Source: Gammaproteobacteria bacterium (lineage in GTDB: Bacteria > Pseudomonadota > Gammaproteobacteria > Arenicellales > UBA868). From it: a DNA stretch of 43,746 bases. Positions 5,030 to 28,968 of the stretch are shown in pieces. The notes under the pieces are model-generated. The model made no database searches. It was not told the DNA's origin and saw only the letters and a program-made list of their open reading frames with translations. Position 1 is the stretch's first letter; each line of letters begins with the position of its first letter. Location of the stretch: contig JAKUQR010000025.1 of NCBI GenBank assembly GCA_022450155.1, forward strand, positions 1-43,746, given 5' to 3'. The position numbers were made by a program, and so were the translations under genes.

Positions 5030-5078
5030 TTACTTCGGGAGGCAGGGGCCGGAGGTTCGAATCCAGCCGCGCCCACCA
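5030..5078 (+). other. Decayed tRNA 3' fragment (Pro-CGG-like), probable attachment core
   Basis: The sequence TTCGGGA, an anticodon loop that would read CGG, is followed by a variable region, the T-loop TTCGAAT and GCGCCCACCA with encoded CCA at 5076-5078. The anticodon and T stems carry mismatches, and no 5' half of a tRNA is present upstream. This fits a tRNA 3' end left behind as an integration-site copy rather than a working gene. The antisense strand is read through by the molybdopterin gene. The isoacceptor assignment is tentative. Confidence 0.55.
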
Positions 5079-7573
5079 TTTTCCACTGCTTTTAGGCCAG
5101 TTCCGCTGGCCCCTTCCTGCTCCGAATTTGTCGTGTGCTGAAAACGTGCTGAAACTGAGTCCATTCCTGTCCCTTCCAGTTCTTCTAGATCCTGCTGCTT
5201 GGCAAGTCGTGTGACCTGACACAGACCGGATCGGTGTGGGACAGAACCGCTGATTGGGTCAGCTTCCGTATCATCAACAAGCAGATTGAAGTTGGCACTG
5301 TGCTCGCCAAGTATCGGGTATCCTGGTTTGCCGAGTGCTTCGCACGCCTGCCACCAGCCATGCTGACCCATCACCGTGTCGGGCCGTAGCCAGGCGTTCA
5401 ATCGCGCACGCGCATGGGCGCTACCTGACGGTGTGCTAATCCGGACCCAGTCGCCATCTTGAATATCGCGTGCCTGGGCGGCGTCCGGGTGTATCTCCAT
5501 GACAGGATCCGGCAACATGCGACGCAAAGATGGCAAGTTTCTATGCTGACTGTGGCAGAACTGATGAGGCTTTGTGGAGCCCAGAACCAGCGGAAACTCA
5601 GCCAGCAGTTCGGGTCGACTTACTGGACTGAGCGCCGGCTCGACGTAATCCGGCAGGGGTGAATATCCGTGAGTCCTGAACGTCTCGGACCAGATCTCAA
5701 TTCGCCCGCTGGGCGTGGCAAAACCGACCTCCTGACTGGCATCCTGGATAGATTCAGGATCAGCATTCATCCCTTGAGGGTTGGCGCGGAGTGTCTCCAA
5801 CGACAGGCCCGTTGCTGACAGGTATTCGCGCAGCGCAGCCTCCTGGTCACCGTCCCAGAAGACATCGCTTAGCCCCAGGCGCTTAGCGAGCTGGAATGCG
5901 ATCCAGCCGTCGTCACGCGACTCACCGCGGCTCGGAATGACCGCGGGCCTTAACTGGACCCATGACTGGGCCTGAGGGCTGATCTCGAACCCCGCCCGCA
6001 GCACCTCGCGCTCCCAAGGCGAATTGACGGGCAGAAAGATGTCCGCGTATGCAGCGGTCGGGTTGAGAAACAGATCAGCATGCACCTGAAAGTCGAGCAT
6101 CTCCAGTGCTTCGGCACCTCGACGGGTTCCCGCATGTGAAACAAGCAGGTTGGCGCCAAAAGTCAGAAGGCTGCGCACAGGATAGGGGTCGGCTTCGATG
6201 ATCGCACGGTAGAGATCGTCCGATGTACACCAACCGTCCTTCGGCGGTCCCAGTGGCTTACTGGCAAGACCGAGTGTCAAAGCCCGCTGGCGCGAAGTCC
6301 TCAGCGCCAAGCCTGATAGATCAGGAACCGGCAACCTGGCAGCCTGATAATTGCCTCCGACCCGTCCGAGACTGCCCGTCAGCGTATAAAGCAGCGTAAT
6401 TGCACGGGCCGTCTGGGTTGCGTTGGTATGCTGGCCCACACCGGACCAGGCATACCATGACACGGGTCGCGACGCCCAGATTAACCTGGCAGTCTCAATC
6501 ACTTGAGCTGCGGGTACACCCGTGATGACCTCGACTTTCGGCGGCGAATAGTCTTTGCACAATACGGCGTAGTGATCAAAAACTGGTCGACAAATAACCG
6601 GTCCAGTCAGAGTGTTGACCTCGACCTCACCTTCGAGAAGCCAGTCGGGTGAAGAATCGCCTGTAGATACCGACCGGCCTAGCGGCACGGGAGCTGAACA
6701 CGCTTGATCCCAGCCCACGCAAGCGGAGATAGAACCGTTTCGAGAAAAGTCTGCTTCAACCAGCAGCCGCTTTTCCTTAGGGTGAACCAGCGCCGGGCCA
6801 TTGCTTTGACGACGCAAAAAGTCGGCGTCGTAGGTGCCTTCTGCAATCATCAGATGGGCAAGGCCGAGTGCGAGCGCGCCGTCGGTACCGGGGCGAACCT
6901 GTAACCACTGGTCGGCCTTCACTCCAGGTCCGCTTCGTTTAGGATCCACCACGATAGTACGCGCCCCGCGACGTTTGGCGTCGGCCAGGCGTTGCGCCTG
7001 CGCCAACCAGGAGCCATTCGGGTTATATCCCCACAGAAGAATACAGCCAGCATGGTCAAGGTCAGGCACACCAACACCGGTGCCAAATGTGTAAGTAGGT
7101 GCCACATCTTTATGCCAGTTACAGATCTCAGTCCCGTAGCAGTTGTTAGCGCTGCCAAAGGCGTGCATCAACCGCTCGACCCAGTGGATAGAGTCCGATA
7201 TGGCAGTACCGCTCGGGGTAGTAATGGCAAAGGCAACGCTCTCTGGGCCAAATTGGCGAGCATTTTCCAGCAGCTGCGACGCCGTAGTGTCGAGCGCCTC
7301 ATCCCAGCTGATGCGAGACCAGCCCGGATCACTGTCCCCTTTCGGTCGGGTCCGTTTCATCGGGTAAAGTATCCGATCGGCACTGTAGACCAGTTCCGGC
7401 GCCGCCTGACCCTTGGCACACAGTGATCGGCCGGTGGGGTGGTCGCGATCCGGCTCAACCGCAGTCAATCGGCCATCGCGGACAATCGAAATACACCCAC
7501 AGCGTGACCGACAAAGCGCACACCAGCCGTGTACCCTACGGTCCGCGCTAATGCTGTTTGCTACTGTGCTCAC
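5030..7573 (-). CDS. Molybdopterin (bis-MGD) oxidoreductase with an attachment-site-encoded tail
   Basis: This 847-residue protein belongs to the DMSO-reductase/formate-dehydrogenase superfamily. An N-terminal [4Fe-4S] motif is formed by C18, C21, C25 and C52 (GWCALCRSRC, then SLCAKG). NNCYGTEICNWHKD near 143-156 includes C151, a plausible molybdenum ligand. Cofactor-binding segments follow (WGYNPNGSW, IVVDPKRSG), and the C-terminal domain shows EFPLVLGSTKPHQFCHSQHRNL and DWVRISTPSG. There is no Tat signal, so it is probably cytoplasmic. The natural family ending lies near residue 792; the last 55 residues are read from the repeat module and the tRNA fragment. The substrate is unknown. No electron-transfer subunit adjoins it. 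Confidence 0.82.
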   Translation of the reverse strand: MSTVANSISADRRVHGWCALCRSRCGCISIVRDGRLTAVEPDRDHPTGRSLCAKGQAAPELVYSADRILYPMKRTRPKGDSDPGWSRISWDEALDTTASQLLENARQFGPESVAFAITTPSGTAISDSIHWVERLMHAFGSANNCYGTEICNWHKDVAPTYTFGTGVGVPDLDHAGCILLWGYNPNGSWLAQAQRLADAKRRGARTIVVDPKRSGPGVKADQWLQVRPGTDGALALGLAHLMIAEGTYDADFLRRQSNGPALVHPKEKRLLVEADFSRNGSISACVGWDQACSAPVPLGRSVSTGDSSPDWLLEGEVEVNTLTGPVICRPVFDHYAVLCKDYSPPKVEVITGVPAAQVIETARLIWASRPVSWYAWSGVGQHTNATQTARAITLLYTLTGSLGRVGGNYQAARLPVPDLSGLALRTSRQRALTLGLASKPLGPPKDGWCTSDDLYRAIIEADPYPVRSLLTFGANLLVSHAGTRRGAEALEMLDFQVHADLFLNPTAAYADIFLPVNSPWEREVLRAGFEISPQAQSWVQLRPAVIPSRGESRDDGWIAFQLAKRLGLSDVFWDGDQEAALREYLSATGLSLETLRANPQGMNADPESIQDASQEVGFATPSGRIEIWSETFRTHGYSPLPDYVEPALSPVSRPELLAEFPLVLGSTKPHQFCHSQHRNLPSLRRMLPDPVMEIHPDAAQARDIQDGDWVRISTPSGSAHARARLNAWLRPDTVMGQHGWWQACEALGKPGYPILGEHSANFNLLVDDTEADPISGSVPHRSGLCQVTRLAKQQDLEELEGTGMDSVSARFQHTTNSEQEGASGTGLKAVENGGRGWIRTSGPCLPK
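5135..5188. repeat. Arm-like repeat module 1
   Basis: GTGCTG occurs at 5135 and 5146, exactly 11 bp apart. It is followed by 10-bp units beginning GTCC, GTCC and GTTC at 5159, 5169 and 5179. The module lies 57 bp after the CCA of the tRNA fragment and overlaps the coding tail of the molybdopterin enzyme. Its architecture matches modules 2-8. Confidence 0.7.
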
Positions 7574-9636: not shown

Positions 9637-9689
9637 GTGCTGAAACCGGGTCCGTTACTATCCTCTCCAGTCTATTCAGGTCCGTTTGC
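9637..9689. repeat. Arm-like repeat module 3, first half-repeat lost
   Basis: One GTGCTG (9637) remains, followed by 10-bp units starting at 9650, 9660, 9670 and 9680 (GTCC, ATCC, GTCT, GTCC). The missing first GTGCTG would have overlapped the end of the MFS gene. Confidence 0.6.
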
Positions 9690-9869
9690 GTGGTTCGGTC
9701 TCGATTATCGAACTTAAGGGGGGATCGTTCCACTAAAAACCCGGATCGACCTTCAGACCCGACTGGGGCCCCTGCTGGAATTTCAATGAAGGAATTTCTC
9801 CGCCAGACTTAAGTTGAATCTGGTGAGAAGACTCGCAATATCTGTCAATGAGGAAGGTAATAGCACTGT
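9688..9869. repeat. About 182-bp dispersed repeat, copy A
   Basis: The segment from GCGTGG to CACTGT matches 13496-13680 at roughly 80% by eye, including GGGGCCCCTGCTG-like, CTGGTGAGAAGACTC and ATATCTGTCAATGAGGAA blocks. Both copies lead straight into an arm-like module. The two copies enclose the formamidase/GFA/amidohydrolase operon. No coding potential is evident. Confidence 0.7.
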
Positions 9870-9931
9870 GACCAGAATGTGACCGAAATGTGTTTACTCC
9901 ACTCCATTTGGGTCACATTGAGTCACATCCG
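9868..9931. repeat. Arm-like repeat module 4
   Basis: GTGACC at 9868 and 9879 is 11 bp apart, with a third degenerate unit at 9890. GTCAC units follow at 9912 and 9922, 10 bp apart. The hexamer differs from modules 1-3, but the spacing is the same. Confidence 0.65.
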
Positions 9932-9980
9932 CGCGGGATCGGTGTGCGTAAGTGATTGATTAAATTTGACTGCTAGTGTG

Positions 9981-10034
9981 AAGCTTGGTATCGCAATGCG
10001 AAGGTCGGAAGTTCGATCCTCCTCGGCTCCACCA
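9981..10034 (+). other. Decayed tRNA 3' fragment (Ala-like acceptor), probable attachment core
   Basis: A T-arm with loop TTCGATC is followed by CGGCTCC, A and CCA (10032-10034), an ending typical of tRNA-Ala; a tmRNA 3' end is an alternative. The anticodon-arm region is degenerate and the 5' half is absent. Confidence 0.5.
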
Positions 10035-10104
10035 AATCTTCCCTTCTACATCAACCCTTTACTAGGGTTAGATCGTTCCTAGGACGTTGGCTTTGATTCG
10101 GAAC

Positions 10105-10168: not shown

Positions 10169-10217
10169 CGTGGGATAGGCGTGCGCAGTGATTGATTAAT
10201 TGTGACTGATATTGTGA

Positions 10218-10242
10218 AGCGTGCTGTCACAACGCGAAGGTA
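10218..10242 (+). other. tRNA anticodon-arm-like remnant, probable attachment core
   Basis: GCGTG, loop CTGTCAC (anticodon GTC, Asp-like) and AACGC form an imperfect anticodon arm. It aligns with the start of the core at 9981 through shared flanks GTGATTGATTAA and GCGAAGGT. No T-arm or CCA follows. The gap 10243-10414 shows only a short GC-rich hairpin near 10253-10272. Confidence 0.35.
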
Positions 10243-13236: not shown

Positions 13237-13495
13237 AAACTGGATATAACCCCTAAGTGTGGGTCCCGATAGCAGGACTGGGGCCAGTGGATCGTTCCAC
13301 TGAAAACTGGGATTGGTCTCAAGGGATTAGGGCCGAATCTCCATCGAATCACTCTAAACGGCCCCTTCATACCTTCTGACCCACTCCCCTACTTCGAGCA
13401 GGTTCAGCGACGAATTATTTGTTGAAAAAATTGATAGAAAATTTCCCAAAACAATATTTGGGGAAATTAATAAGCTGGGCCTCAAGCCTGCATGT
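13237..13495. other. Noncoding spacer with a fragment of the 182-bp repeat
   Basis: No gene is visible. A segment GGATCGTTCCACTGAAAACT near 13290 matches part of the dispersed repeat copies A and B, so a third, mostly deleted copy may be present. The rest shows no structure I can name. Confidence 0.4.
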
Positions 13496-13680
13496 GCGTG
13501 GATCGATCTCGATTATTGGCCTTAAGGGGGTATGGATCGTTCCATTAAAAAGCCGGATCAATCTTCAAATCCGACTGGGGCCCCTGCTGAAATTTCAGAG
13601 AAGGATTATCTTGGCGAGCTTTAGTTGCATCTGGTGAGAAGACTCAGAATATCTGTCAATGAGGAACGTATTGTCACTGT
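13496..13680. repeat. About 185-bp dispersed repeat, copy B
   Basis: This is a direct repeat of 9688-9869, in the same orientation and about 80% identical by eye. It again ends in CACTGT, where an arm-like module begins. The pair brackets the three-gene amide-degradation operon and the duplicated cores before it. Confidence 0.7.
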
Positions 13681-13732
13681 ACCTAAAATGTACCTAACTG
13701 GAGTCCTTTTCTGTCCCTTCCAGTCCATTCAG
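13678..13732. repeat. Arm-like repeat module 6
   Basis: TGTACC at 13678 and 13689 is 11 bp apart with a TAAAA spacer. GTCC units then follow at 13703, 13713 and 13723. The module lies about 70 bp before the tRNA-Asn fragment. Confidence 0.72.
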
Positions 13733-13801: not shown

Positions 13802-13876
13802 TTGGAACGGTGGACTGTTAATCCATATGTCGCAAGTTCGAGTCTTGCCCGGGGAGCCAGTTTTCTCGATGTTTTT
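13802..13876 (+). repeat. 75-bp direct repeat carrying a tRNA-Asn 3' fragment, copy 1 (att-like)
   Basis: Bases 13802-13859 are the 3' part of tRNA-Asn. The anticodon loop CTGTTAA (anticodon GTT), an intact T-arm GCAAG-TTCGAGT-CTTGC, and CCGGGGAG with CCA are visible. The matching 5' acceptor strand TCCCCGG is absent upstream, so it is not a complete gene. The 75 bases recur without a mismatch at 15812-15886, exactly 2010 bp away, bracketing the agmatinase and OsmC genes. Confidence 0.88.
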
Positions 13877-13900
13877 CAGCAGTCCTTCCACGTTCAATTC

Positions 13901-13985
13901 TCAAACGTCGCTAACTTTTGGCAAGTGTGCCACTGTTTCATGCAGTCTATCATCCGCACCACGGATACCCATGAGACAATAATAG
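13901..13985 (-). pseudogene. Relic of a tyrosine recombinase C-terminus
   Basis: On the minus strand the frame reads GADDRLHETVAHLPKVSDV before a TGA at 13901. It aligns with VADDRLHQTVANLPKLGTL of the relic at 15901-16035. The active-site box upstream has decayed. It lies just inside the left tRNA-Asn repeat, the position expected for an integrase gene whose 3' end faces the attachment core. Confidence 0.6.
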
Positions 13986-14019
13986 TTGCTAAATACCCCA
14001 ATCACTATAGGAAGTAGAA

Positions 14020-15003
14020 ATGAGCAATATGGTGGCAACTAACAGATCAGATTCAACACTTACTGTACCTCCCCGCCAAGTCCGGCAGACATTTATGGAC
14101 TTTGATCTCGAACTTGACCTTGGGAATCTACAAGCAGACATCGTTATCCTTGGCCTACCATACGGTGACCCGTATAACATCGACGAAGTAACTAATGACC
14201 AGACAAATGCGCCAACCGCGATTCGACAGGCCTCGCGTAAAGCGAGCGGTGGATTAGAGCGATGGGATTTTGATATTGGAGGAACACTTTTCAATGGTAA
14301 ATCCATTCGTGTAGTCGATTGTGGCGATGTGATTGGTAACCCCCGAAACTTACAGGAACACTACGACCACGCCGAGCAAGCAGTCAGGTTAATCTTACGC
14401 TCAGGCGCGATGCCAATAATTTTAGGTGGAGATCACGGTGTACCGATCCCTGTATTGCGAGCTTTTGAAAATACCGGGCCAATCACTTTAGTTCAGGTCG
14501 ATGCCCATTTAGACTGGGTAGACCAAAAGTTCGACGGTGTCCGCGAAGGTTACTCAAGTCCAATGCGCCGAGCATCAGAAATGGACCATATAGATGAGAT
14601 TTTCCAAATTGGACTTCGAGGCCAAGGTAGTGGTCGGCAGCAAGAGATAGAAGCGGCTAATGAATATGGCGCCCATCTGATTACTGATCTAGAACTCCAG
14701 GACCATGGTATGGATCACGTGCTCAGCAAAATACCACCAGGTGGATTGTATTACCTCACAATAGATGCAGATGGATTAGATCCTTCGGTGATGCCTGCTG
14801 TCGCTGGTCCTGCACCCGGCGGACTGACATATCCGCAAGCCCGAAAGCTAATTCATGGATTGGTTTCCAAAGGTCGCGTAGTAGGAATGGATATTGTTGA
14901 AATAACACCCGCTCGTGACATCAATCAAATTAGCGCAATCACCGCTACAAATTTAATCCTAAACATGATCGGTAAGTGTGTGAGAGCTGGATATTTTGAC
15001 TAA
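14020..15003 (+). CDS. Agmatinase/arginase-family ureohydrolase
   Basis: This 327-residue binuclear manganese ureohydrolase should split urea from a guanidino compound. The metal-site motifs are complete: GGDHG with H139, DAHLDW at 161-166, TIDADGLDPS around 247-256 and the EITP segment with E294. The usual HGTPF substrate loop is replaced by YSSPMRRASEM near 168-180, so agmatine need not be the substrate; another guanidino acid is possible. A GGAAG ribosome binding site precedes the ATG at 14020. It is followed 54 bp later by an OsmC gene, and both form one unit between tRNA-Asn repeats. Confidence 0.83.
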   Translation: MSNMVATNRSDSTLTVPPRQVRQTFMDFDLELDLGNLQADIVILGLPYGDPYNIDEVTNDQTNAPTAIRQASRKASGGLERWDFDIGGTLFNGKSIRVVDCGDVIGNPRNLQEHYDHAEQAVRLILRSGAMPIILGGDHGVPIPVLRAFENTGPITLVQVDAHLDWVDQKFDGVREGYSSPMRRASEMDHIDEIFQIGLRGQGSGRQQEIEAANEYGAHLITDLELQDHGMDHVLSKIPPGGLYYLTIDADGLDPSVMPAVAGPAPGGLTYPQARKLIHGLVSKGRVVGMDIVEITPARDINQISAITATNLILNMIGKCVRAGYFD

Positions 15004-15057
15004 ACGGATTGTCGTTATGTCCTTACAGTAAGAGGTAAACATGAAAGGAGGCAAGAG

Positions 15058-15612
15058 ATGGCGAAGACAACGATAACAGCGGGGGAACTACGGGAACTGC
15101 AAACGCCAATTAAGGAACGTTATCGGACCGATCCGGACTCTGCCACTATCACCCTATCCGCGTCAGGGAAACTGCATTCTAGTGAGATTGCGTGTAGCGT
15201 CGATACGGGACGCGCTTTGGTCAAAGCTGGGTTGCATCCAGCCACTGGTGGTGACGGAACTTTTGCCTGTTCCGGGGATATGCTTCTCGAGGCTCTAGTG
15301 GCATGTGCCGGTGTAACGCTCCGTGCCGTTGCGACCGCCATGGGTATCACGATACATCACGGCGTAGTCTATGCCGATGGCAATCTCGACTTTCGTGGCA
15401 CATTGGGTGTGGATAAGGCAGCACCCGTTGGATTTCGCAATATAAGCTTGAGATTCGAGGTTAACAGCGATGCTGATGAAGAAGGACAAGCCACCTTACT
15501 CAAATTGACGGAACGTTACTGCGTCGTCTACCAGACACTGACCCAGACGCCGCAGATCACGGCATCCTTTAATCCAGTTAAAGGCGGAGACTTCAAAGAA
15601 GATACAGACTGA
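15058..15612 (+). CDS. OsmC/Ohr-family thiol peroxidase-like protein
   Basis: This is a 184-residue cytoplasmic protein. The two reactive-cysteine regions of OsmC proteins are visible: DMLLEALVACAGVTLRAVA near 79-97 with the first cysteine, and TERYCVVYQTL near 155-165 with the second. Such proteins reduce organic hydroperoxides. A perfect AGGAGG site lies 6 bases before the ATG at 15058. The reason for pairing with the ureohydrolase is not evident; protection against peroxide generated by amine oxidation is possible but speculative. Confidence 0.83.
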   Translation: MAKTTITAGELRELQTPIKERYRTDPDSATITLSASGKLHSSEIACSVDTGRALVKAGLHPATGGDGTFACSGDMLLEALVACAGVTLRAVATAMGITIHHGVVYADGNLDFRGTLGVDKAAPVGFRNISLRFEVNSDADEEGQATLLKLTERYCVVYQTLTQTPQITASFNPVKGGDFKEDTD

Positions 15613-15619
15613 TATTTCG

Positions 15620-15637
15620 GGCGCAAACGTTTGCGCC
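15620..15637. promoter_or_regulatory. Perfect 18-bp palindrome after the OsmC gene
   Basis: GGCGCAAACGTTTGCGCC is perfectly self-complementary and starts 7 bp after the OsmC stop. There is no T-run on either side, so it is not a typical intrinsic terminator. It may be a protein-binding site or a weak terminator stem. Confidence 0.5.
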
Positions 15638-15687
15638 ATGCCCGGCGCAGTTGGCGTAGGTAATGTCGGAGTTAAGAATTTAACTAC

Positions 15688-15730
15688 TGTCACTAAAATG
15701 ACACTAACTCAACGTCGTTTCTGTCGCGAA
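15688..15730. repeat. Arm-like repeat module 7
   Basis: TGTCACT at 15688 and TGACACT at 15699 are 11 bp apart with an AAAA spacer. GTCG elements follow at 15714 and 15723. It lies just before the second tRNA-Asn repeat, the same relative position as module 6. Confidence 0.62.
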
Positions 15731-15811
15731 ACGACCATAAACAACCTACAAGCACAGGATCAGAGTTTAGGTTTATGCTTATTTGTAGGCGTTTATTTGA
15801 ATTAGCCGTGG

Positions 15812-15886
15812 TTGGAACGGTGGACTGTTAATCCATATGTCGCAAGTTCGAGTCTTGCCCGGGGAGCCAGTTTTCTCGATGTTTTT
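15812..15886 (+). repeat. 75-bp direct repeat carrying a tRNA-Asn 3' fragment, copy 2 (att-like)
   Basis: This is identical over 75 bases to 13802-13876, including the 17 bases after CCA (GTTTTCTCGATGTTTTT). No tRNA-Asn 5' half precedes it. It forms the right end of the 2010-bp agmatinase-OsmC unit and the left end of the next one. Confidence 0.88.
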
Positions 15887-15900
15887 TGACATTCCCACCG

Positions 15901-16035
15901 CTACCAATCTTCAAGTGTGCCTAACTTTGGTAGGTTTGCTACCGTTTGATGCAGTCTATCATCCGCTACATGGATGTATTCCAGCGTTGTCTTCAGGTCT
16001 TTATGACCAGCCACTCTGGAAGTATCCAGGACGTT
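15901..16035 (-). pseudogene. Tyrosine recombinase C-terminal fragment with active-site box II
   Basis: The minus-strand frame contains RVAGHKDLKTTLEYIHVADD followed by RLHQTVANLPKLGTLEDW and a stop. The histidine in AGH and the tyrosine in LEYIH are box II residues of a tyrosine recombinase. Only about 45 family residues remain; upstream (16036-16137) the frame is open but unlike an integrase. It lies next to the tRNA-Asn repeat and parallels the relic at 13901. Confidence 0.75.
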
Positions 16036-16212
16036 TGCATTCGGAAGGCGAAAACTACGGAAGATTGAGAAGTTGGAGGTAACCCCTAATTCAAGAGTTA
16101 CAAGGGGGTGGATATGGAACGTTTCTTGGATGGTCAAACACCCTGAGAAAGGTGTAGCTAGTAATGGAGCGAGGATGACGGCTTAGAGGCAGCCTCAGCT
16201 GAAAGCATGGGA

Positions 16213-16278
16213 GTCACCCAGATATTGATGCGCTATACGCATTTGAGGGTGGAGGATTTGGTGGAGAGGCTGGGGTAG
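16213..16278 (+). pseudogene. Second type of tyrosine recombinase C-terminal relic
   Basis: The frame reads GVTQILMRYTHLRVEDLVER and stops at TAG 16276-16278. It is closely related to the end of the recombinase at 1-72. The catalytic tyrosine context MRYTHL is intact, but no upstream recombinase sequence survives. With the copy at 16725 it flanks the small gene at 16373. Confidence 0.7.
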
Positions 16279-16705: not shown

Positions 16706-16724
16706 GCTTCTGGTACACCAGGCT

Positions 16725-16761
16725 GATGCGCTATACGCATTTAAGAGCAGAGGCTTTAGTC
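16725..16761 (+). pseudogene. Third copy of the MRYTHL integrase 3' end
   Basis: The sequence GATGCGCTATACGCATTTAA encodes MRYTHL and is followed by RAEALVE before similarity fades. It is almost identical in DNA to positions 21-59, and the core 18 bases equal those at 16227. No recombinase precedes it. Confidence 0.65.
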
Positions 16762-16782
16762 GAAAGTTCGGGGCGAATTTTT

Positions 16783-18439: not shown

Positions 18440-18471
18440 CGCGGGATCGGGTGTGCAATTCTGACCGCAAT

Positions 18472-18632
18472 CGACCAAGACCAGCTCTTCTGATGAACTT
18501 ACGTCCACTCCTATCCAACCAAAGCCAGCGCTTTAGACGGTAACTTTGACGGTAACTTTTTGGGTGGCCTGAGACTACTTCTAGCAATTCAATCAGTTAT
18601 CAATCAATGTGAGGTCTTCCGGGCCCACCATT
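18472..18632. repeat. 161-bp direct repeat flanking the ABC exporter, left copy
   Basis: The segment matches 20715-20875 with about seven differences (96% by eye), six of them in the first 30 bases. It contains GACGGTAAC twice, 12 bp apart (18536 and 18548), and ends in TTCCGGGCCCACCA, which resembles a tRNA acceptor strand plus CCA. It looks like an attachment-site duplication bounding a 2.2-kb insertion. Confidence 0.85.
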
Positions 18633-18666
18633 AAACTATTGATTTACGATATTAGTTAACTACGCT

Positions 18667-20523: not shown

Positions 20524-20714
20524 ATTCGGTCTCCATGGAATATCTACAAAAAGCAGTCATAAGCATACAGAAAGTAAAAAACTCTCCTCTGTCAGGCCAC
20601 ATTTTACTCAGCCAATAGTCTTGAAACGGCGCGACTCTAACTTTTTGGGAACCCTGTCGGGGGCTTTAGCAGATGGTGACTTTTCGTACAGCCCGATGCA
20701 ACTCTAGCTGCTAC

Positions 20715-20875
20715 CGACCAGGATGATCTCTTCTAATGTACTTACGTCCACTCCTATCCAACCAAAGCCAGCGCTTTAGACGGTAACTTTGACGGTAACT
20801 TTTTGGGTGGCCTGAGACTACTTCTAGCAATTCAATCAGTTATCAATCAATGTGAGGTCTTCCGGGCTCACCATT
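20715..20875. repeat. 161-bp direct repeat flanking the ABC exporter, right copy
   Basis: This is the right copy of 18472-18632, in the same orientation, with the paired GACGGTAAC at 20779 and 20791. The 20524-20714 stretch before it shows no gene. It marks the boundary between the exporter unit and the methylated-amine region. Confidence 0.85.
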
Positions 20876-20898
20876 TATTTAGTTGATTAATAAGTGTT

Positions 20899-26010: not shown

Positions 26011-28968
26011 TCAGCTTCTCATGCGCTCGCCTTTGGCGTCGATGAATACCGGTGGTGCCACTAGCGCTTCAATGGTTCGATCCAGACCCGATACAGTGAC
26101 CGTATCCCCGTGCCGGTCACGCCCATTCTTGAGGAGCGCCAAGGATATGGAGCGATCGAGATTTGGGCTAAAACATGACGCAGTGACATGGCCCAGAAAG
26201 CTGGGTGCCTCACCAACGGCCGCGGGCTCGATAATGGCACTACCTTCGACCATCACGAACTGTTCGTCCTGTGGCAGGAGTCCGACCACCTGCTGTCGGA
26301 CACCACCGACAGACCGGTCTCTAACCAGACTCCGTTTACCGACAAAATCTGGTTTGTTCATGTTGACCACCCAGCCCATTCCGGCATCAAAAGGGTTGGT
26401 GATGCCATCACCTTCTGCGCCGGCTGAGATATAACCCTTTTCAATCCTTAAGACACCGCTGGTCTCCGAACCCACCGGCGTAATACCGAAAGTGGCCCCG
26501 GCATTCATCAGGGCCTCCCACACTGCAAGCCCATCACGCCGACGAACATTGACCTCAAAGCTGAGTTCACCGGTGTAACTCACGCGGGCAACTCGCGCGA
26601 ATTTTCCTGCCACCTGACCTTCGCGCATCGACATAAATGGAAACGAATCGGAGTCCAGGTTGATATCAATCTCCGTTGAAACCAAGACTTCCCTGGCTTT
26701 AGGTCCGCAGACGCAAATATTGGCCCACTGACTGGTTACTGTTGTGACATACACTCTTAAGTTCGGCCATACGACCTGCAGCAACCTCACGATATGGGTA
26801 TACACCGCATCAGCGGTTCCTGATCCAGCAGAAAGCAGGTAATGGTTCTCACCCAACCTGAACGTCACACCATCATCGAGCAGACGGCCGTCCTCATGCA
26901 ACATCAGCCCAAATCGTCCCTGCCCAATTTGCAGGTCGTCCCAGCTATTGGTGTAGACGCGATTCAGAAATGTTGTCACATCTGGACCATGAAGCTCAAA
27001 CTTGCCCAGCGGCGTACCGTCATAAATACCTACCTTTTCCCGTACGGCCAACGCCTCCCGGCTGACCGCTGAACTCATGTCCTCCTCGGGTCCAGGATAA
27101 TAAAATGGTCGACGAAAATTGGAGCCCGCTTCATTCATCGATGCGCCGGCATCGATATGCCACTGGGTAATGGGTGTCGTTCTCAGCGGAAGTATCAGCG
27201 GACCGTCATGTGATCCGGCGATAACTCCAAAACTGATCGGACTGTAAGGGGGCCTGTAGGTCGTCGTGCCCACTGAATCCGGCTCAACCGAAAGTTGATT
27301 CGCGATCAGGCCTATTATATTGGTATTACTGATTTTGCCCTGGTCCGTTCCCATCCCAGCCGTCGTGTAGCGCTTGACGTGCTCTATAGATACATAGTTC
27401 TCACGCACTGCCAATTTCAGGTCACTGCTCGTCACGTCGTTCTGAAAGTCGACAAATGCTTTGGCTCTGGATGTAGTCGGAATCTCCCAAATGGCTTCTA
27501 TCTGAAGTGCTGGTGTATAGGATACATCGAGCTGCGGCAGCGTCATTGGCCGCAGACCCAATGCTTCGACACTGTACCTTCCAGCCTCCAGACCTTCGTG
27601 CAAACAACCTTTGAGATCAAACACGCCATGAACAGCGCCTGCGCACAACGAGGGCTGAACGGATTCGCCCGGCACAAAACACGCAAGGCCCTGGTCGTAG
27701 ACCGGCTTTGCGCCGGAATGTGAATGAAGATGTACCAGTGGGTTCCAGCCGCCAGAGTAGCAGACCACATCACACGCAAGCTTACTTACCTGTGACGAAT
27801 CAGCCAGAGACACCACCTCTACACCATGCACGTTTGAACGCCCGTGAACCGCGCTGATACCCGAGGCGCTCAACACTTCTATGCCCTGGTCTGTCGATCT
27901 TTTCAACAGTTCATAATCAATCGTCTGACGAGTATCCACGATTGCGTGAATATTTTGTCCTGCCTCAACAAGATTGAAAGCAGCCTGGTAGGCGCTATTG
28001 TTATTTGTCGTGATAACGATCTGTCGACCAAGATTAATAGCGAAACGCTGTACATACGTACTTGCTGCCGAGACGAGCATCATGCCAGGACGATCATTGT
28101 TCGGAAAAACAAGCGGCCGCTCTACTGCCCCTGTGGCAATGATCACCTGCTTTGTACGCACGCGCCAAAATCGCTCACGCAGCCAGGATTGTTCAGGATT
28201 CCGTTCGACGATCGTCAGCATATTGTGATCGTAGTATCCTGCAACCGTACTGTTGGCAAGTCTACGAATATTGGGCAGACGGTCCACTTCTGCGGTGACA
28301 TGCTGAACCCAGTTCACTGCGGACTGCCCGTCAATCTGCGCCGGCTCACTGAGCAGCCGTCCTCCCGGCTGACTCTGATCATCCACGATCAGAACCCGGG
28401 CACCGCTTTCACCGGCAACCAGAGCGGCGGCTAGGCCACTCGGTCCTGCACCAACGATCAGGATGTCGTAATGATGGTATCGTTTTTCGTAATGTTCAGA
28501 TTCCGTTGTCTTGGGGATCTGACCCAGACCCGCAGCTTTACGGATAATGCGTGCATAGCTGCTCCATGGCCGCCACATGAAGGTTTTATAGTAAAACCCG
28601 GCGGGAATAAGCCGGGATATCCGATCGCTGACACCCCCCAGGTCAAACCGAGGCCCCGGCCAACAGTTCTGACTTTTCGCATGTAGATGATCAGTCAGGG
28701 GCAAACACGTTGCCAGCACATTCGGCTCTTCAGATGTCCCCTGAAGTTGCACCAGTGCATTTGGCTCCTCGAATCCCGCCCCCACAACACCCCGAGGTCG
28801 GTGATACTTTAAACTTCGTGCCACCACTCGAACCCCGTTTGCCAACAACGCCGACGCCAGCGTATCACCGTGGTATCCCTTGTAGTGCCTACCGTTAAAG
28901 TGAAATGGAATAACGCGATCCCGATCTATCAGCCCCCCTTTGGTCCTTCGACTGGGGTAGGCATTCAT
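26011..28968 (-). CDS. soxA: Sarcosine oxidase alpha subunit
   Basis: This 985-residue protein has the full length of SoxA. An N-terminal ferredoxin-like domain (RVIPFHFNGRHYKGYHGDTL at 19-38) is followed by a pyridine-nucleotide/FAD domain with DILIVGAGPSGLAAALVAG near 169-187. The C-terminal third is a GcvT/aminomethyltransferase domain (KVGIYDGTPLGKFELHGPDV; GAEGDGITNPFDAGMGWVV) that transfers the methyl-derived carbon to tetrahydrofolate. It follows soxD by 37 bp. No break or missing domain is seen. Confidence 0.93.
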   Translation of the reverse strand: MNAYPSRRTKGGLIDRDRVIPFHFNGRHYKGYHGDTLASALLANGVRVVARSLKYHRPRGVVGAGFEEPNALVQLQGTSEEPNVLATCLPLTDHLHAKSQNCWPGPRFDLGGVSDRISRLIPAGFYYKTFMWRPWSSYARIIRKAAGLGQIPKTTESEHYEKRYHHYDILIVGAGPSGLAAALVAGESGARVLIVDDQSQPGGRLLSEPAQIDGQSAVNWVQHVTAEVDRLPNIRRLANSTVAGYYDHNMLTIVERNPEQSWLRERFWRVRTKQVIIATGAVERPLVFPNNDRPGMMLVSAASTYVQRFAINLGRQIVITTNNNSAYQAAFNLVEAGQNIHAIVDTRQTIDYELLKRSTDQGIEVLSASGISAVHGRSNVHGVEVVSLADSSQVSKLACDVVCYSGGWNPLVHLHSHSGAKPVYDQGLACFVPGESVQPSLCAGAVHGVFDLKGCLHEGLEAGRYSVEALGLRPMTLPQLDVSYTPALQIEAIWEIPTTSRAKAFVDFQNDVTSSDLKLAVRENYVSIEHVKRYTTAGMGTDQGKISNTNIIGLIANQLSVEPDSVGTTTYRPPYSPISFGVIAGSHDGPLILPLRTTPITQWHIDAGASMNEAGSNFRRPFYYPGPEEDMSSAVSREALAVREKVGIYDGTPLGKFELHGPDVTTFLNRVYTNSWDDLQIGQGRFGLMLHEDGRLLDDGVTFRLGENHYLLSAGSGTADAVYTHIVRLLQVVWPNLRVYVTTVTSQWANICVCGPKAREVLVSTEIDINLDSDSFPFMSMREGQVAGKFARVARVSYTGELSFEVNVRRRDGLAVWEALMNAGATFGITPVGSETSGVLRIEKGYISAGAEGDGITNPFDAGMGWVVNMNKPDFVGKRSLVRDRSVGGVRQQVVGLLPQDEQFVMVEGSAIIEPAAVGEAPSFLGHVTASCFSPNLDRSISLALLKNGRDRHGDTVTVSGLDRTIEALVAPPVFIDAKGERMRS

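Follow-up and report, generated by a model that had tools for sequence, protein, structure and literature searches.

A 2010-bp agmatinase/OsmC unit between tRNA-Asn ends, a probable non-autonomous cassette of a gammaproteobacterial tRNA-gene array

This work describes a 2010-bp unit in a gammaproteobacterial genome (G000; Arenicellales, UBA868) that is probably a non-autonomous tRNA-Asn cassette, added by serial accretion of the CIME or additive-island type, with an integrase supplied in trans or in cis carrying out the insertion. The unit lies in the window (the whole 43,746-nucleotide stretch that was analyzed, on contig C25). Its borders are copies of the 3' end of the host tRNA-Asn gene, it has ends in common with some other units at that gene, and it carries no integrase gene. 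Among relatives, a site empty of a sister unit is found, two units have crossed between genera, and alleles are swapped between the working tRNA and its displaced copies.

Borders, cargo, and ends of the window unit

The unit is bounded by two identical 75-bp direct repeats on the plus strand, at 13802..13876 and 15812..15886 (period, 2010 bp, by sequence comparison within the window), and the statement of the preliminary description that they lack any mismatch is borne out. Each repeat had also been equated with the end of tRNA-Asn plus 17 bp. This holds for 72 bases out of the 75, which match C19:63215-63286 without a mismatch, a stretch made up of the 3' part of the tRNA-Asn(GTT) gene (C19:63194-63269) and the 17 bp downstream of it. 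The first three bases (TTG) are not tRNA, and each copy (core) runs from about tRNA position 22, slightly 5' of the anticodon arm, to CCA and the 17 bp beyond. Because the exact 75-mer is also a tRNA gene end, the repeats are confirmed as real rather than due to chance. No tRNA-Asn was called in the window by ARAGORN, and the G000 gene and the window lie on separate contigs (C19 and C25). (A tRNA-Gln call by the same program at 28374-28461, minus strand, falls inside a 985-aa ORF at 26011-28968, also minus, and is probably spurious.) A repeat search of the whole G000 genome gave seven places; beyond the window pair and C19, C5 and C7 (two) carry diverged copies and C8 a short match.

Between the repeats lie the two genes named in the preliminary description, both on the plus strand and both full length by Pfam: an agmatinase/arginase family gene (14020..15003; 327 aa; PF00491, E 8e-61) and an OsmC-like gene (15058..15612; 184 aa; PF02566, E 6e-17). 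The nearest named relatives found for the agmatinase are in a betaproteobacterial MAG (69%) and in Azospirillum (64-66%); a second agmatinase-like stretch, 69% identical, lies on C36 of G000. In the search for a donor of the cargo pair, 0 of the 15 nearest agmatinase loci had an OsmC match at E<=1e-5 in the surrounding DNA, and among the matches listed, no DNA match in relatives spanned both cargo genes. Nor was a whole homologue of the 2010-bp unit found in the 145 and in the 100 genomes searched, so that the unit is known from one genome. Since no relative searched has the exact unit, its own empty site cannot be shown pairwise, and its mobility would be argued by analogy only, from sister units.

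The preliminary description had placed an integrase C-terminal relic after each repeat. After the right copy, the relic is recognizable as protein: the left end of the next unit (15887..16068, minus strand) holds, by homology, an integrase C-terminal stub with 51 homologous aa, and 15916-16068 (minus) is 61% identical over these 51 aa to the integrase frame of a relative. After the left copy, the remnant of a tyrosine-integrase 3' end that forms the left end of the window unit (13877..13966, minus) gave no tblastn hit and is marked by DNA homology alone, to 15887-15975 (74% identity between 13866-13966 and 15876-15975, the sequences 3' of the two copies). Each insertion displaces the 3' end of the host tRNA, and the cores are therefore copies of one tRNA gene; this is why they are identical, whereas the adjoining remnants, derived from different elements, differ. 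The right end of the unit (15656..15811, plus) has long matches of 81-91% on C7 and C5 of G000, in G001 (two), and in G021. It contains a doubled arm-like motif of putative function (TGTCACTAAAATGACACTAACT; 15688..15709, plus) and a short inverted repeat (GTCGTTTC...GAAACGAC; 15714..15735, plus). An arm-like motif (TGTACCTAAAATGTACCTAACT; 13678..13699, plus) also lies in the right end of the adjacent upstream unit.

Further repeats and tRNA-like fragments occur in the window and the genome. G000 has other tRNA 3' fragments scattered among its genes, the clearest being on C2; those at window positions 5036-5085 and at C2 positions 125372, 128963, and 146802 look by eye like chimeras of tRNA-Pro(CGG), tRNA-Val(CAC), and tRNA-Arg(CCG), as would be expected if tRNA genes with a common anticodon-stem core were visited in turn by related integrases. 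Direct repeats of 190 bp, 91% identical (18454-18644 and 20697-20888), flank an ABC transporter gene and are tRNA-like near their end (...GGGCCCACCA / GGGCTCACCA); the stretch between them is likely another unit. Three relics (12-71, 16226-16275, and 16724-16773) resemble the C-terminus of a second integrase, and two of these three, 498 bp apart, flank a 110-aa ORF without a Pfam match. A tRNA-like 3' fragment and a partial repeat of it lie at 9946-10041 and 10187-10241, the best tRNA match being short and to a tRNA-Ala on C40. A 200-bp block (9687-9890 and 13495-13700) is common to this element and the unit just left of 13802.

The tRNA-Asn site and its units across relatives

The gene order uvrB, GspH-like gene, tRNA-Asn (the first two named by Pfam on the G000 copies) is found in G000 and, among 20 loci retrieved from relatives, in 17. 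The sequence 3' of tRNA-Asn varies among relatives, with empty, single-unit, and tandem states in a comparison made between species rather than strains. In G029, tRNA-Asn runs straight into an MFS gene, with no unit. The same MFS gene follows tRNA-Asn, a DinB unit, and a tRNA-end copy in G021, and it follows tRNA-Asn, a unit with aminotransferase and APH genes, and a tRNA-end copy in G025. G029 and G025 are 91.7% identical over 193 bp ending with the tRNA core and 92.9% identical over 1542 bp starting at the far core of G025, and the 2.7-kb unit of G025 is absent from G029. G001, from the window's own genus, has a tandem of tRNA-Asn, GST unit, copy, PhyH/SDR unit, copy, and DinB unit, the last with a right end and no further tRNA copy detected. 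The preliminary description supposed that the window unit could excise; that it is of a class gained or lost whole is upheld by these relatives with an empty site (G029) or another single unit (G021 and G025) at the same tRNA-Asn. The empty site that the description proposed to check for in relatives exists at this gene, with respect to the unit of G025 and not to the exact window unit.

In G000 itself, the end of C7 has copies at 145217 and 143928, followed by the aminotransferase/APH pair of G025 and then by genes common to other relatives; it seems to be the distal part of such an array. C19 ends at 63349, 80 bp 3' of the tRNA, in sequence resembling that after the window copies. We infer the unassembled contig order tRNA-Asn (C19 end), window (C25), C7 end. 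Contigs end at most about 100 bp from tRNA-Asn in 5 of the 25 genomes (G000, G007, G012, G015, and G026). Compared with 1.0 expected (P=0.002, from rounded contig counts and hand-set flags, without a control gene), this count is weak evidence; the contig ends may reflect mixed populations at the site, and the repeats could also cause them.

Nine complete repeat-bounded units were found, with periods of 1080, 1289, 1478, 1929, 2010, 2093, 2722, 3200, and 5524 bp. In six of the nine, the period is 1080-2093 bp and there are one or two cargo genes, and the window unit resembles the other 1-5 kb units 3' of tRNA-Asn within the same bacterial family. The trimmed interiors of the nine have no mutual similarity at E<=1e-3. 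PF00589 is absent from the main ORFs of all nine by Pfam scan and from the G000 units also by six-frame search, and no transfer genes were found among the cargo proteins scanned. Some units have a common left end, in which at least ∼100 bp from the 3' end of a tyrosine integrase, lying on the opposite strand, follow the core, and some have a common right end, consisting of the ∼150 bp before the next core with a doubled motif (e.g., TGTCACTAAAATGACACTAAC), a short inverted repeat, and a conserved stretch. Judged from their sequence, the doubled motifs are putative arm sites. In a BLAST search of 25 sequences, the left-end reference was matched at 9 places and the right-end reference, which was taken from the window unit itself, at 8. 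Both references were matched in three of the nine complete units (the window unit, G001 unit 1, and G021) and the right end only in G001 unit 2. The units of G000 C7, G025, G022, G018, and G016 matched neither, although an integrase stub and an arm-like motif are still present in the C7 unit. By tblastn, integrase sequence was found in 9 of the 19 left ends tested but not in the window unit's own; eight of these matches are 19-68 aa long and the ninth is a 182-aa PF00589 frame in G003, and some stubs carry stops. Arm motifs that match strictly between the left and right ends of one unit were sought by eye and not found, and such pairing was rejected. In G022, where the second copy is a nearly full tRNA, the unit may be another kind of duplication; the G016 unit, the largest, carries an rve transposase pair and a methionine-synthase-like gene.

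Two alleles of the tRNA-Asn 3' half occur, A (T-stem CAAG/CTTG) and B (CTGG/CCAG). G001 combines a working tRNA of allele B with displaced copies that are both of allele A (4/55 differ); from such swapped alleles, the tRNA evidently receives its 3' half from the incoming unit, in place of the old one. In G000, the working tRNA and both window copies have allele A, with 0/55 differences, and the C7 and C5 copies are B-like, with 5-9/55 differences. The preliminary description had read perfect repeats beside decayed relics as a sign of a boundary that is recent or still open to exchange. The comparison suggests that the window insertions are recent relative to the other copies in G000; the part concerning ongoing exchange is not sustained. 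Among the 25 genomes in which the tRNA was located, 10 have allele A and 14 allele B, whereas G009 combines a B-like T-stem and a different acceptor stem; in G015 and G026, tRNA-Asn is cut by contig ends. On a uvrB tree of 21 genomes (G006, G009, G015, and G020 are omitted, their uvrB being too short), well-supported branches force a minimum of 4 allele changes. The allele is also clustered on that tree (10-13 of 500 shuffles were as low), which makes the pattern partly one of inheritance. G029, with its empty site, has allele A, as do its near relatives, which fits either an earlier insertion followed by loss or inheritance. The tRNA alleles record which insertion replaced which.

Two units were transferred between genera, as follows from homology that starts at the core and from 4-fold sites far less diverged than those of uvrB. 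From the tRNA core onward, G021's DinB unit is 81.5% identical over 986 bp to the third unit of G001, and the two have the remnant-cargo junction in common. Their DinB 4-fold sites are 71.1% identical (76 sites), versus 26.9% for uvrB in the same genome pair (227 sites), a uvrB divergence that is at saturation; conservation of the common DinB unit is lower outside its gene. The aminotransferase/APH unit of G025 is 77.3% identical to G000 C7 over 2425 bp, also from the core, and the 4-fold sites of the two genes are 50.0% (186 sites) and 59.6% (109 sites) identical, versus 27.2% for uvrB (239 sites). The DinB unit, the sole unit at the tRNA-Asn site in G021, was most likely already without an integrase when transferred. 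DinB cargo (∼700 bp) is also present downstream of moaB (named by PF00994 in G025) in G000 (C4:813-2297), G002 (C46), and G025 (C224). On C224, DinB is followed by a 312-aa frame, perhaps cut short, that matches PF00589 positions 28-144 of 172, together with a second moaB 3' end; on C4, it is followed by integrase relics and a moaB 3' copy; and C46 ends soon after the DinB cargo. Thus, one cargo occurs in two kinds of element, and similar ends occur with different cargo.

Insertion model and alternative explanations

In the preferred reading, an integrase would act in trans or from a neighboring element in cis. A unit would enter when its tRNA-Asn 3'-end copy recombines with the host gene; this copy would replace the 3' half of the working tRNA, the old 3' half would be pushed downstream as the next border, and several units would be stacked by serial insertion. 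Each unit would keep what a tyrosine integrase needs in cis (core, remnant-bearing left end, and arm-like right end), having lost the integrase gene and carrying one small metabolic operon instead. The way in which cargo comes to lie between the unit ends, like any present-day mobility, we infer as well. An intact cognate integrase is not assembled in G000, and C25 gave no PF00589 match at E<=0.01. In the order, matches at E<=1e-25 were found in 3 of 109 genomes, all of them partial frames rather than an intact gene (G003, 182-187 aa, the best; G016, 146 aa; and G001, 68 aa). Other integrases do exist in the cell, as G000 has two PF00589 frames, one at tRNA-Val (C40; 373 aa) and one at tRNA-Pro (C7; 395 aa), whose identity to the G003 frame is only 34-36%. 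With none assembled in G000, a cognate integrase is a doubtful agent of excision; RecA may be able to excise the unit across the 75 bp, and any present-day excision is hypothetical. With regard to carriage by phage or a phage satellite, the 48-nt core was found in 0 viral contigs, and no relatives of the G003 integrase were confirmed in viral contigs.

Classical CIME accretion alone, in which integrase-bearing elements decay in place and move when an intact neighbor excises the tandem, is a possibility that we take seriously while thinking it rather improbable. The scheme is described for ICEs/IMEs (in the portion of PMC5704250 available to us), and it would suit both the stubs of differing length beside the cores (19-68 aa), which look like independent decay, and the 182-aa PF00589 frame still at the tRNA in G003. 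However, the integrase-less DinB unit has one remnant-cargo junction in two genera and stands alone at the site in G021; moreover, the units are very small, and their cargo proteins, as scanned, include no transfer gene. Recombination by RecA between tRNA cores or ends, for instance after DNA uptake and with no integrase today, would draw on the 75 bp of perfect identity and the conserved ends, and the cognate integrase is indeed not assembled in G000. We nonetheless consider it unlikely, given that the homology of common units begins at the core and not within the flanks, that these units lie in different neighborhoods, and that the borders carry integrase remnants, which indicate a site-specific origin.

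That the window holds the rubble of an old, dead tRNA-Asn island, with repeats kept by chance and no unit-wise mobility, is a reading to which we give little credence. Decayed cores elsewhere in G000 (5-9/55 differences) and stubs with stops are consistent with it, but the empty site in a sister species, the transfer between genera, and the allele swaps speak against it, as do the 0/55 mismatches of both window cores to the tRNA. Duplication during assembly, which the preliminary description named as part of what would refute its reading, is exceedingly improbable and was rejected: perfect identity alone would favor it, and against it the flanks differ and the right end is found independently in other contigs and genomes.

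Relation to known systems and significance

The window feature is placed among tRNA-gene accretion arrays, of which it represents a variant composed of very small cassettes that lack an integrase. The portions of the open-licence literature available to us hold no account of integrase-less tRNA-Asn cassettes and do describe integrase-less units at other RNA genes; the comparisons below rest on such portions of the cited papers. An intact tRNA with displaced 3' fragments in the same orientation, the layout of a tRNA-targeted element, is seen for the window unit, with the tRNA on another contig, and is found on one contig in G001, G021, and G025. As in a CIME, the window unit has lost integration and transfer genes and kept attL/attR-like borders. 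CIMEs and tandem accretion at tRNA/tmRNA genes (PMC5704250, PMC3146451) likewise involve repeat-bounded tandems at one RNA gene, some integrase-less, with adaptive cargo; among the ssrA islands of Dehalococcoides, 15 of 31 lack an integration module (PMC3146451). Here, by contrast, the units are very small, two genera have in common an integrase-less unit whose junction is fixed, and the remnants are of tyrosine rather than serine integrases. As in additive flexible genomic islands, cassette presence, absence, and number vary at one conserved tRNA. Those of Alteromonas (PMC4119200) and Methylophilaceae (PMC10872708) also have a conserved tRNA target, tRNA-end repeats, and a size that varies between strains (from 330 bp upward in Methylophilaceae), whereas here single insertions are resolved by means of the unit ends, the integrase remnants, an empty site, and the tRNA alleles.

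Islander-type tRNA islands (PMC4383910) resemble the present units in that a regenerated tRNA and a displaced 3' fragment mark the ends. They are defined by a tyrosine integrase ORF, of which the window unit has a remnant only. Islander rejects candidates that lack an integrase ORF or are <2 kb and reports 125 tandems of at least two and 4 of at least three in 2168 genomes (PMC4383910); with its integrase and 2-kb filters, units such as those described here would be missed. Tycheposons, according to a second-hand description (PMC10872708), are tRNA-anchored and cargo-bearing like the window unit but measure 4-200 kb and have a tyrosine recombinase, whereas the window unit measures 2010 bp and has no recombinase. 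Integron cassettes and CALIN (PMC11389934) are also small gene cassettes in arrays without their own recombinase. Here, however, the landing site is a tRNA gene and the borders are tRNA ends rather than attC; judged by border identity, namely tRNA-Asn 3' ends, integron/CALIN membership was rejected for the window unit.

Beyond the preferred reading of the single unit as a serially accreted cassette, we advance tentatively the idea of a family-wide system of tRNA-tailed cassettes. In such a system, small recombinase-less metabolic cassettes with remnant and arm ends would be inserted in trans at tRNA genes, stack in an integron-like manner, pass between genera, and exchange cargo with other types of element, and the 3'-half alleles would form a readable record of past insertions, perhaps at empty sites as well. 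Because island finders that demand an integrase miss such units, counts of small-gene traffic at tRNA genes may be too low. The DinB case provides good evidence for passage between genera of a unit that was already integrase-less, and the tRNA allele swap offers a means of ordering insertions. If the units are mobilized in trans, they would constitute a cassette system with the host tRNA as its landing site.
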